A stretch of DNA of 46,077 nucleotides from Candidatus Zixiibacteriota bacterium. GTDB taxonomy: Bacteria; Zixibacteria; MSB-5A5; DG-27. Shown one piece after another: positions 33,857 to 36,395 of the stretch. Position 1 is the first letter of the stretch. Every line of letters begins with the position of its first letter. The DNA lies in NCBI GenBank assembly GCA_030605835.1, contig JAUWHO010000047.1:1-46077 (forward strand). Direction: 5' to 3'. The position numbers and the translations under genes were made by a program. The notes below the pieces were generated by a model. That model had not been told where the DNA came from, did not search any database, and saw only the letters and a program-made list of their open reading frames with translations.

Positions 33857-33889
33857 GGGGATAGGGGTTAGTAGATAGGGATTAGGGGG
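33857..33889 (+). other. G-tract run with quadruplex potential
   Basis: Four G-tracts: GGGG (33857-33860), GGGG (33864-33867), GGG (33878-33880) and GGGGG (33885-33889), linked by ATA, TTAGTAGATA and ATTA. It follows the sulfatase-fold gene stop directly. Confidence 0.5.
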
Positions 33890-33990
33890 AAAGCAGTTTT
33901 CTTTGAATCGCTTCGATTAGAACCACCCACCTGAGGAGACCTTCTCGGTCCGACATTTGTTACCACTTTTAGGAGGGGAGATTTTTTTGC

Positions 33991-34019
33991 TTGACATTTG
34001 CACAAATGTGCGGTATACT
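33991..34019 (+). promoter_or_regulatory. lexA promoter
   Basis: TTGACA (33991-33996), 17 bp, TATACT (34014-34019). Near-consensus, with a start near 34026 and a short leader before the ATG at 34050. Confidence 0.8.
34000..34011. promoter_or_regulatory. candidate LexA operator
   Basis: Palindrome GCAC-AAAT-GTGC (extended TGCAC..GTGCG) set between the -35 and -10 of the lexA promoter. It has the spacing of the Gram-positive LexA box (CGAAC-N4-GTTCG) with altered half-sites. The position fits autorepression. Confidence 0.65.
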
Positions 34020-34049
34020 TTTCTCGTGATCTAACCGAGGGAAGAAAAG

Positions 34050-34661
34050 ATGAAAGAAAAGCTGACCACTAAACAACGCCGGGTGCTGGATTTCATTGGC
34101 GACTGCATCCAACGAAACGGAGCTCCTCCCACCATCCGGGAGATAGGCAAGAGATTCAAGATGAGCTCCACCAACTCCGTGAGGGATGTCCTGAATGCGT
34201 TAGTCAGAAAGGGTTATATCCACAGGAAGCCTCTGGTGTCCAGGGGAATTGAGCTGGTGAGAGACTGGGCCAGTTCTTTCGTGACCGTACCAGTAGTAGG
34301 GCGGATTGCCGCTGGCTTGCCAATCACCGCGGTTGAAAACATTGAGGGGAACGTTGCGGTGGATAGTTCTTTTGTCTCTGGCGAGGGGGTCTTCTCTCTA
34401 CGAGTCACAGGAGATTCGATGAAGGAGGCTGGCATCTTCGATGGCGATATGGTCCTGGTGCGACAGCAGTCGACCGCCGAGAGAGGCGAGATCGTCGTTG
34501 CCATCATTGGAGAGGAGGCCACGGTGAAAAGGTACTATCCTGAGAGAAAACGAGTCCGACTGGAGCCCGCCAACCCCGCCTATGAACCGATCCTCGTTGA
34601 GACGAAAGCGCCGGATTTCTTCATTGCCGGCAAGGTGATCGGACTTATGAGGAAGATGTAA
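34050..34661 (+). CDS. lexA: LexA repressor
   Basis: LexA represses SOS genes and self-cleaves when bound to RecA on single-stranded DNA. It has 203 residues. The winged-helix N-terminal domain runs over about 1-65; the recognition helix (SSTNSVRDVLNALVRKGY) differs from the usual SSxSTVHxHLxxLEKKGY, which suits a variant operator. The cleavage site is A88-G89 in GRIAAGLP. The catalytic dyad is S123 (VTGDSMKEAGI) and K160 (EEATVKRYYP). It sits convergent to the PIN/XRE-ImmA genes, 80 bp from the PIN gene's stop. Confidence 0.97.
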   Translation: MKEKLTTKQRRVLDFIGDCIQRNGAPPTIREIGKRFKMSSTNSVRDVLNALVRKGYIHRKPLVSRGIELVRDWASSFVTVPVVGRIAAGLPITAVENIEGNVAVDSSFVSGEGVFSLRVTGDSMKEAGIFDGDMVLVRQQSTAERGEIVVAIIGEEATVKRYYPERKRVRLEPANPAYEPILVETKAPDFFIAGKVIGLMRKM

Positions 34662-34741
34662 TACTCGACAATTCTCCGGATCGATGAGACATCGGGGATA
34701 TACCCATTCCCGCATGCGACGGGACCGCTTGCCAAGGTCAC

Positions 34742-35263
34742 TTAGATTCTTAACCCCAAACCTCTGACCTTGTACTCTTGGTAGACTCGCAGTTCCTTTT
34801 TGAACCTCTTCTCCGAAAGTTTGTTATGAACGGACCTCATGAGCCCCGATTGCTTTAAAGCCTCTTCGCACGATATTAGCCTATCGCCTAAATCAAGTAA
34901 CACCGTAGCCCACCAAGCTGTGCCATCGGCGGTACAGAATTTCATAGTAGGTGTTTTTTCCTTTTGCAGAATGGCAATAGCCTCAAGTTCCCCCGTGTGC
35001 AAGTACGGCGCCAGCACAGGGGCAAACTGATTCTGAACTGAGGCAACCTCAATCGCCGTTGCTTCTTTCTTAAGTATTCTTGCGGCTTTAAGGTCACTAC
35101 GCAAATTCGTTGGATGTATGCGACCTTTTTTGTTCCTATAACAATGGGCCTCCTCAAATACAGAGGAAGGAAGAGTAACTTGGTTGCAGGCAATGAACTT
35201 ATGCCAAATCCCCATTCTGTGGAGTTCGATTACTATATCTGCATCAAGCAGTAGTGAATTCAA
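34742..35263 (-). CDS. PIN-domain protein (probable toxin-like nuclease)
   Basis: 173 residues with a PIN-like nuclease pattern. Acidic residues are D7 and D9 in LLLDADIVIELHRMG, E92 and E94 in TGELEAIAIL, and D113 in CTADGTAWWAT. PIN proteins cleave RNA and are often toxins. The start is TTG at 35261-35263, inside the end of the XRE-ImmA gene (20-bp overlap), so translation is coupled. There is no separate small antitoxin; the upstream XRE-ImmA protein may play that part. Assignment rests on the motif spacing and context, and the fold was not checked. Confidence 0.7.
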   Translation of the reverse strand: MNSLLLDADIVIELHRMGIWHKFIACNQVTLPSSVFEEAHCYRNKKGRIHPTNLRSDLKAARILKKEATAIEVASVQNQFAPVLAPYLHTGELEAIAILQKEKTPTMKFCTADGTAWWATVLLDLGDRLISCEEALKQSGLMRSVHNKLSEKRFKKELRVYQEYKVRGLGLRI

Positions 35264-36395
35264 AGTTGTAGTACTCTTCCTCTGAGAGACCGTATTTGGT
35301 GAGAAAGTCGTCGAACAGACCGAGTTGGACGTGGAAAATCTCTGCCAGCTTGGCTCGGGAAACCCTACGGAGCATCATTGCTTTGAACCCCAGATAAACC
35401 AGGCGCCTTGAGAATTCAAGAGCTGTAACATATTTGCCCTTCCTGAGCGCCTTATCCAGTCTCTTGAAATCCGGTGACGCAATCACTTTATCTACGTGAT
35501 CCTTGTTAAGTAATTTCAAGTGAACCGCTCTCCACAAGACTGCTTCGGTTGAAACTTCGAACTCGATGGCTATTTGGACTATATCAAGCCAAGAAACTTT
35601 CTTATCCTCTATTCGCTTCTCCACCTCAGCTGTGAATATCTGCTTCGGGAGTAACAGGGCAGAAGCAAAGGCATCGGCAAATTTGTCAGCTTGGCTTTTC
35701 CCTTCCCTGTCATTGCTACAATGAACTTCCCCTGGTTCGAAAGTCTCCCAAGTAAGGATATGAAAGAACTCGTGAGCCAAGTCGTAGTTTCGACGCCAAG
35801 GGGCACTTCTTGTATTTAAGAGAATAGCTGGTCCAAAGTCACCCACCGTTGAGGCCGCTGAACCTGCGCCCCTAAGGTCCAAATAGATTATCTTGAAATA
35901 TAGCTGCTCTTCCAAAATCTTTGGAAGGGAAGTTGCTGGTCGGTTTCCCAGACTTAGCTCCGCACAGATTTCCCTGGCTTTTCCCTGAACCACCTCGTAA
36001 TTTAACTTTCTTTGTGAAATCCTCCATGGTTCAAAAGGTCTTTCGGAAACATCGCCAACTTTTCTCTCCAATAGGTGATAATTCCTACAGATGTTCAAAA
36101 ATCTTTTTTCGAGGTTCAATGCCTTCTTGTCATCCTCTTTTGATCGCCAAAGGACTGCAGGATCCCTCAGCATCTCCTTTTCCGGTGGAAAAAGGTCGGG
36201 AATGTCCTTATGGTAGAGTCTCAGCAACTTCACGAGCTCGGAGGCCTTCAATTCCCTCTTGCCACTCTCAATGTAGGAAACGATCTGATAGCTGGACAAC
36301 CCCAAGTGTTGTGCTACTTCCTCCTGAGTCAGCCCCAGCCCTTCTCTAACACCTCTGAGCTGTTGCCCCAATCGGTACTTGTCGCTTTTTGACAT
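35244..36395 (-). CDS. XRE-family regulator fused to an ImmA/IrrE metallopeptidase
   Basis: 383 residues. The N-terminal HTH_3 domain (about 8-62, LGQQLRGVREGLGLTQEEVA, then SSYQIVSYIESGKRELKA) is followed by an ImmA/IrrE (COG2856) zinc-peptidase domain. The zinc motif is H208-E-F-F-H212 (DLAHEFFHIL). The later SQADKFADAFASALLLP block is the third-ligand region, with Asp where Glu is more common. In ICEBs1 ImmA cuts the ImmR repressor; in Deinococcus IrrE cuts DdrO. Here both parts are one protein and the PIN gene follows by overlap. The ATG follows GAGGTGG. The gene is A+T-richer than its neighbours, and the promoter holds a palindrome like that of lexA. Confidence 0.9.
   Translation of the reverse strand: MSKSDKYRLGQQLRGVREGLGLTQEEVAQHLGLSSYQIVSYIESGKRELKASELVKLLRLYHKDIPDLFPPEKEMLRDPAVLWRSKEDDKKALNLEKRFLNICRNYHLLERKVGDVSERPFEPWRISQRKLNYEVVQGKAREICAELSLGNRPATSLPKILEEQLYFKIIYLDLRGAGSAASTVGDFGPAILLNTRSAPWRRNYDLAHEFFHILTWETFEPGEVHCSNDREGKSQADKFADAFASALLLPKQIFTAEVEKRIEDKKVSWLDIVQIAIEFEVSTEAVLWRAVHLKLLNKDHVDKVIASPDFKRLDKALRKGKYVTALEFSRRLVYLGFKAMMLRRVSRAKLAEIFHVQLGLFDDFLTKYGLSEEEYYNFEFTTA

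Follow-up and report, generated by a model that had tools for sequence, protein, structure and literature searches.

LexA is a textbook regulator whose DNA word differs between bacterial groups. In Fibrobacter succinogenes this word is reportedly TGCNC-N4-GTGCA. The LexA protein of that species has been characterized, as mentioned in a passage of PMC3091678 that cites Mazon et al. 2004. According to a statement in a review (PMC9578287), the LexA word is monophyletic for phyla and classes, and Table 1 of that review gives CGAAC-N4-GTTCG as the Gram-positive box and TACTG(TA)5CAGTA as the SOS box of E. coli. Two remarks in a 2021 paper (PMC8565304) bear on the present case: lexA duplications often accompany changes of its DNA word, and recA is named among the core SOS genes across phyla.

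The window analysed in this study, i.e. the whole stretch of 46,077 nucleotides from a Candidatus Zixiibacteriota bacterium (contig JAUWHO010000047.1 of assembly GCA_030605835.1), carries a lexA gene with a palindrome in its promoter. Below, this palindrome is compared with its counterparts in the same genome and in relatives of the same phylum.

The lexA gene and its promoter

A promoter scan of positions 33860-34760 revealed a single sigma-70-like site (11 of 12 matches, spacer of 17; 0.7 expected in shuffles), which reads TTGACA-TTTGCACAAATGTGCGG-TATACT at 33991-34019 and ends 30 bases before the lexA ATG. The palindrome GCACAAATGTGC, with the core GCACA-AA-TGTGC, lies wholly inside the 17-base spacer (Table 1), just as the preliminary description had placed it, between the -35 and -10 of lexA. 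The symmetry of the surrounding 14-mer, TGCAC-N4-GTGCG (33999-34012), is incomplete, since its outer T stands opposite G. Compared with the phylum consensus, ACTGCAC-N4-GTGCAGT, the full 18-base operator of the lexA copy, TTTGCAC-AAAT-GTGCGGT, shows 3 mismatches in 14 positions and is without the CTG/CAG outer bases.

The product of the gene was identified as LexA by the equivalog TIGR00498 (216 bits, cut-off 110.95). Alignment to E. coli LexA chains located the residues for self-cleavage, as well as the recognition helix, SSTNSVRDVLNAL, whose sequence is as previously quoted.

Table 1. Coordinates of the lexA promoter, operator and gene within the window
Feature	Position	Strand	Basis
-35 hexamer TTGACA, lexA promoter	33991..33996	+	promoter scan
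Full LexA operator (putative), 18 bases	33997..34014	+	comparison with phylum consensus
Core palindrome between -35 and -10	34000..34011	+	sequence, genome pattern counts
-10 hexamer TATACT	34014..34019	+	promoter scan
lexA, 203 aa; cleavage site A88-G89, catalytic pair S123/K160	34050..34661	+	TIGR00498, E. coli LexA alignment
Codons of recognition helix, residues 39-51	34164..34202	+	E. coli LexA alignment

Beside lexA, two genes of the minus strand (34742-36395) encode a protein with an HTH and an IrrE-like M78 protease domain (PF06114; RmrA-like in PADLOC, 3e-22) and a 173-aa protein without any match, which is PIN-like by eye. Together the two genes resemble a toxin-antitoxin or defence pair.

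Occurrence of the box in the genome

Within the window, TGCAC-N4-GTGCG has one exact match, and 2 matches when one mismatch is allowed (1.37 expected). In the whole genome (2.68 Mb) the bare palindrome GCACANNTGTGC is present at 3 exact sites, one of them within a coding gene, with none in the backward-read control. As 2.6 sites per genome are expected by chance (equal base use, 2.68e6/4^10), the bare palindrome was rejected as evidence. For the complete arrangement of -35, box and -10 (TTGAC-N4-GCAC-N4-GTGC-N-GTAT, 17 fixed bases), 3 exact matches were likewise counted genome-wide, where about 0.0003 are expected; at up to 3 mismatches there are 7 matches versus 1 in the backward control. The exact arrangement precedes lexA, a small ORF followed by dinB, and a zinc-ribbon protein followed by a Hel308-like helicase. 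Thus, the presence before other SOS genes that is looked for in a LexA operator is found in this genome at the dinB operon and the helicase operon.

Two further matches, C12:1017 (2 mismatches) and C51:125989 (bare palindrome), were rejected as LexA sites, since both lie inside open frames. A 19-mer search at up to 3 mismatches gave 20 forward and 18 reverse matches versus 16 and 8 in the backward control, so that the search adds little to the three clear sites.

Conservation of the box across the phylum

The analysis was extended to 132 genomes of the class, and the phylum sample consists of the same 132. A lexA match at E<=0.001 was obtained in 114 of them, some of these matches being partial only. 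After exclusion of paralogs, fragments and roughly a dozen orthologs with lower scores, 90 lexA promoters from 17 families were compared. The box was detected in 87 of the 90, an equal score being reached in 1 of 1800 dinucleotide shuffles, with a box score built by eye on the very lexA loci to which it was then applied. A palindrome lying over the lexA promoter and kept in orthologs, as is typical of a LexA operator, is therefore found here, and its predicted conservation ahead of lexA in relatives is borne out. Among the three promoters below the threshold, that of G103 has a box approximately 570 bases upstream and the other two have weak boxes.

The strict pattern of -35, box and -10, with at most 2 mismatches, was present in 111 of the 132 genomes, and its backward-read control gave 0 in all 132. 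A looser pattern, applied to 18 chosen genomes, had matches in 16 of them, with 3 matches in the backward control, all from G131.

Two lexA promoters of family f10 (L049, L080) carry two tandem LexA-type boxes 18 bases apart. In G090:C7, G092:C41 and G093:C60 a second, divergent lexA is located directly before a second Y-family polymerase gene.

The dinB and zinc-ribbon/helicase targets

In the window's genome the box at C6:83674 lies upstream of an 82-aa ORF (L004:2073-2318; no Pfam match), which is followed by dinB, encoding a Y-family polymerase. A box was found at 17 of 30 dinB loci, and most of the others share the lexA box; in four relatives of family f12 the box stands before a dinB on a different contig from lexA.

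The third site, C15:37767, is upstream of a gene for a 62-aa protein with two CxC/CxxC ribbons, followed by an SF2 helicase gene (L328:168-3124, i.e. G000:C15:37767-40723; relatives in L299-L327 and L376-L405). The helicase of this genome is divided between two overlapping frames, of 242 and 689 aa, while in relatives it is mostly a single frame of about 900 aa; the split reflects either an assembly frameshift or a broken gene. With lexA and other sites left out of the box lists, a box lies within 1600 bases upstream of at least 84 of the 97 helicase genes that have a visible start (median distance 333), and the remaining 13 have no box among the boxes listed; the helicase genes of G115 and G116 have further boxes beyond the 84. 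Across the phylum, no other target carries the box as regularly as the helicase.

Among 59 helicase loci scanned, positions could be assigned to both box and helicase in 42. An ORF for a zinc ribbon of the CPDC..C..C..C type lies between the two in 40 of them. The placed loci represent 37 different genomes, 35 of them with the ribbon (families f5 and f8). The two-ribbon form occurs in f2 relatives and in the window's genome, and the zinc-ribbon ORF is seemingly absent from the inspected loci of families f12 to f14. In one relative the ribbon shows similarity, far below the cut-off (1.5e-6), to the tail at the C-terminus of B12-dependent ribonucleotide reductase.

The best match of the helicase among solved structures is Hel308 (8e-55), with Brr2-type and PolQ helicases more distant. 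The helicase of one relative (L332) stays below the cut-offs of the Hel308 equivalog NF040935 (205 bits versus 1200) and of PRK02362 (294 versus 887). By these matches the enzyme is predicted to be a Hel308-like helicase and not Hel308 itself. HamB was rejected as its identity: the PADLOC match (5.5e-36) is weaker than that to Hel308 and was taken as reflecting shared helicase domains. No paper combining the SOS response, Hel308 and LexA was found in the literature searched, and the operon of zinc ribbon and helicase would add a new target to the SOS response.

At three loci of f8 relatives (L340, L346, L347) LexA-type boxes are present ahead of small genes. At L340 a protein fragment has a match to the SocA/Panacea antitoxin domain (PF13274), and the L346 and L347 proteins are alike by eye. 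SOS control of toxin-antitoxin pairs is possible in these f8 relatives.

recA and uvrA

The box had also been expected before recA and uvrA, and in this genome it is absent from both: none was found in the 2.7 kb read upstream of recA, which is the fourth gene after cinA-, thpR- and HEPN-like genes (assigned by eye), or within 1500 bases upstream of uvrA. A box before these genes is a usual but not a defining feature, and its absence does not alter the classification as a LexA operator.

The recA upstream regions were scanned in 47 genomes (30 loci up to 500 bases, and 17 more that were fetched). By the scores used, 43 of the 47 have no box; the four positive cases are three of family f19, i.e. 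all f19 recA genes examined, and one f15 site. None of the 30 initial loci reaches a score of 11, the f15 locus (L230) being box-like by the simpler score only. The f19 boxes (G125, G127, G130) score 11-11.5, a level reached before recA in no other family scanned; they are of the GAAC/GTTC type (with one GCTC half in G127) and lie 170-200 bases before the recA match, without an overlapping -35/-10 (L261:2282; L262, minus strand, about 170 bases before recA; L263:1795). Two f18 recA upstream regions have no box. The f19 sites led us to reject the view that recA is outside the LexA regulon throughout the phylum. Most of the phylum seems either to depart from the rule of recA as a core SOS gene or to use recA control sites missed by our scans.

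Operator consensus and box strength

In the lexA boxes of the phylum the outer bases are T in 79 of 87 and A in 85 of 87 (the score favoured the A). The mean number of mismatches to the consensus is 1.1 for helicase boxes (84 boxes) and 2.7 for lexA boxes (88 boxes), and when the two are paired by genome (67 genomes), the helicase box is nearer the consensus in 49, equal in 12 and farther in 6; the search pattern for the helicase boxes was itself close to the consensus, which favours them in this comparison. In the window's genome the dinB box has 0 mismatches, the helicase box 1 and the lexA box 3.

As a general rule, stated in a passage of PMC9578287, weaker LexA boxes are released sooner. 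Since the lexA copy departs from the consensus and the dinB copy matches it perfectly, we infer an order of induction in which lexA would lead and dinB would follow.

Half-site switch and the recognition helix

In families f4, f18 and f19, all ten lexA boxes terminate in GTTC, not GTGC. Their helicase boxes read CTGAAC-N4-GTTCAGT in 3 of 5 genomes (G009, G124, G128), and the other two combine a left half of GAAC with a right half of GTAC (G123) or GAGC (G127). Mixed sites occur in f15, f16 and f17.

The recognition helix of the phylum mostly contains N42-G-V-R. Variants have H45 (f4), or E/D46 together with a usually small residue 47 (f18, f19), with M47 and H45 in G128. All 7 genomes with a small residue 47 have a helicase half-site of the A type, compared with 1 of the 62 others (Fisher p 7e-9, kinship ignored). 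On a tree of the C-terminal domain the GTTC type changes twice and the residue class four times, numbers with which an independent-pairs test of residue 47 against box type could not reach significance. As to the co-evolved specificity proposed in the preliminary description, box and helix types do switch together, but as only two to four independent changes underlie this pattern, co-evolution is graded as suggestive only. Residue 47 as the sole switch was rejected: f16 (V47 in G116) has GCAC/GTTC at the helicase, and G036 and f17 (G121) show GTTC.

Asn42, present in 90 of 90 LexA proteins of the phylum, accompanies the outer T/A. A record from outside the phylum (L114) combines Asn42 with a TGAAC-N4-GTTCA box, which fits such a pairing. 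The E. coli mutant LexA408, which has Ser at positions 41 and 42, is reported to recognize CCGT rather than CTGT, and this specificity would likewise fit a pairing of Asn42 with the outer base.

On balance, and with some reserve, we favour the view that LexA recognition in the phylum spans a graded series from one known code to another. In this view the outer CTG/CAG (Asn42) is nearly fixed, the inner base switches between C and A along with residues 45-47, recA is mostly outside the regulon (f19 excepted), and the most regular target is a hitherto undescribed operon that encodes a zinc-ribbon micro-protein together with a Hel308/PolQ-like helicase. Within the phylum the word seems to shift by one base pair per half-site while the target genes remain the same, with mixed sites elsewhere. 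The stepwise change of a repressor code thereby becomes testable with a few helix substitutions and short DNA probes.

Function of the palindrome

Judging from its place, the promoter geometry, its conservation and the co-occurring targets, all of which are read directly from the DNA, the palindrome very probably serves as the operator for autoregulation by LexA in this bacterium. The protein would bind sites of the ACTGCAC-N4-GTGCAGT type as a dimer, with one wing per half-site. On the lexA box it would cover the spacer between -35 and -10 and keep RNA polymerase off the promoter. Upon DNA damage, a RecA filament would trigger LexA self-cleavage, through the residues listed in Table 1, and the promoter would open. 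The dinB gene and the zinc-ribbon/helicase operon are predicted to be under the same arrangement.

It is very unlikely that another repressor binds the palindrome and merely happens to control lexA, dinB and the helicase. The binding protein is deduced from sequence, and the predominance of helicase sites over lexA sites in nearness to the consensus would suit such a repressor; against it stand the autoregulatory position before lexA in nearly all promoters compared, the classical or plausible repair functions of the targets, which in f19 include recA, and the association of box type with LexA helix type described above.

Still less probable is an intrinsic terminator or attenuator formed by the stem-loop TTGCACAAATGTGCGG and the adjoining T-rich DNA. 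A terminator-like pattern does match at 33998-34013, but 2 such matches compare with 1.0 expected in shuffles, the structure lies upstream of the predicted transcription start, and its tail is the -10, TATACTTTTC. A functionless match due to chance or promoter composition, which the frequency of the bare 12-mer would allow, is scarcely credible, as position, promoter and half-sites recur in the lexA promoters of 17 families, a conservation that by itself contradicts chance, and the backward-read and shuffled controls are empty or nearly so.

Comparison with known LexA boxes

The operator preferred here, that of LexA, shares the 4-base gap and register of the Gram-positive box, and GAAC/GTTC half-sites of the Gram-positive kind are found in families f4, f18 and f19. 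The spacing had been likened to that of Gram-positive bacteria, with other half-sites, and this proved correct: in the window the half-sites are GCAC/GTGC, the inner base in the phylum is mostly C instead of A, and outer T/A prevail, not C/G. In upstream regions of mostly Bacillota lexA genes (73 of 78 loci; 249 site counts, some doubled) an outer T was found in 2 and an outer A in 3. The helix differs as well, as had been noted, being mostly NGVR versus the STVH of 69 of 75 mostly Bacillota LexA proteins; Ser occupies position 42 in 71 of these 75, whose boxes seldom have the outer T/A, and Asn is in this first position in all 90 proteins of the phylum.

The phylum consensus keeps CTG-N10-CAG of the E. 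coli SOS box, and the equivalent of E. coli N41 is Asn in the same 90 of 90 proteins. In contrast to E. coli, the inner bases are CAC-N4-GTG, not TAT-N4-ATA, and R45 replaces E44.

TGCAC-N4-GTGCA is an exact instance of the motif reported for Fibrobacter. In this genome the dinB box fits that motif in full, and the lexA and helicase boxes each differ from it at one position. The inner motif is probably the Fibrobacter-type box already reported. The box had been called a variant, which is right with respect to the Gram-positive half-sites, but less so in view of this probable precedent, and the operator is longer than was described. Two features are unlike the reported Fibrobacter motif: the consensus extends to ACTGCAC-N4-GTGCAGT, and the f4, f18 and f19 sites are of the GAAC/GTTC type. 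No earlier report of such a LexA box in this phylum was found in the literature searched; the phylum-wide mapping, the GTGC/GTTC switch and the zinc-ribbon/helicase SOS operon are apparently new. We class the site among the known kinds of LexA operator, from which a longer consensus, an internal switch and unusual targets set it apart.
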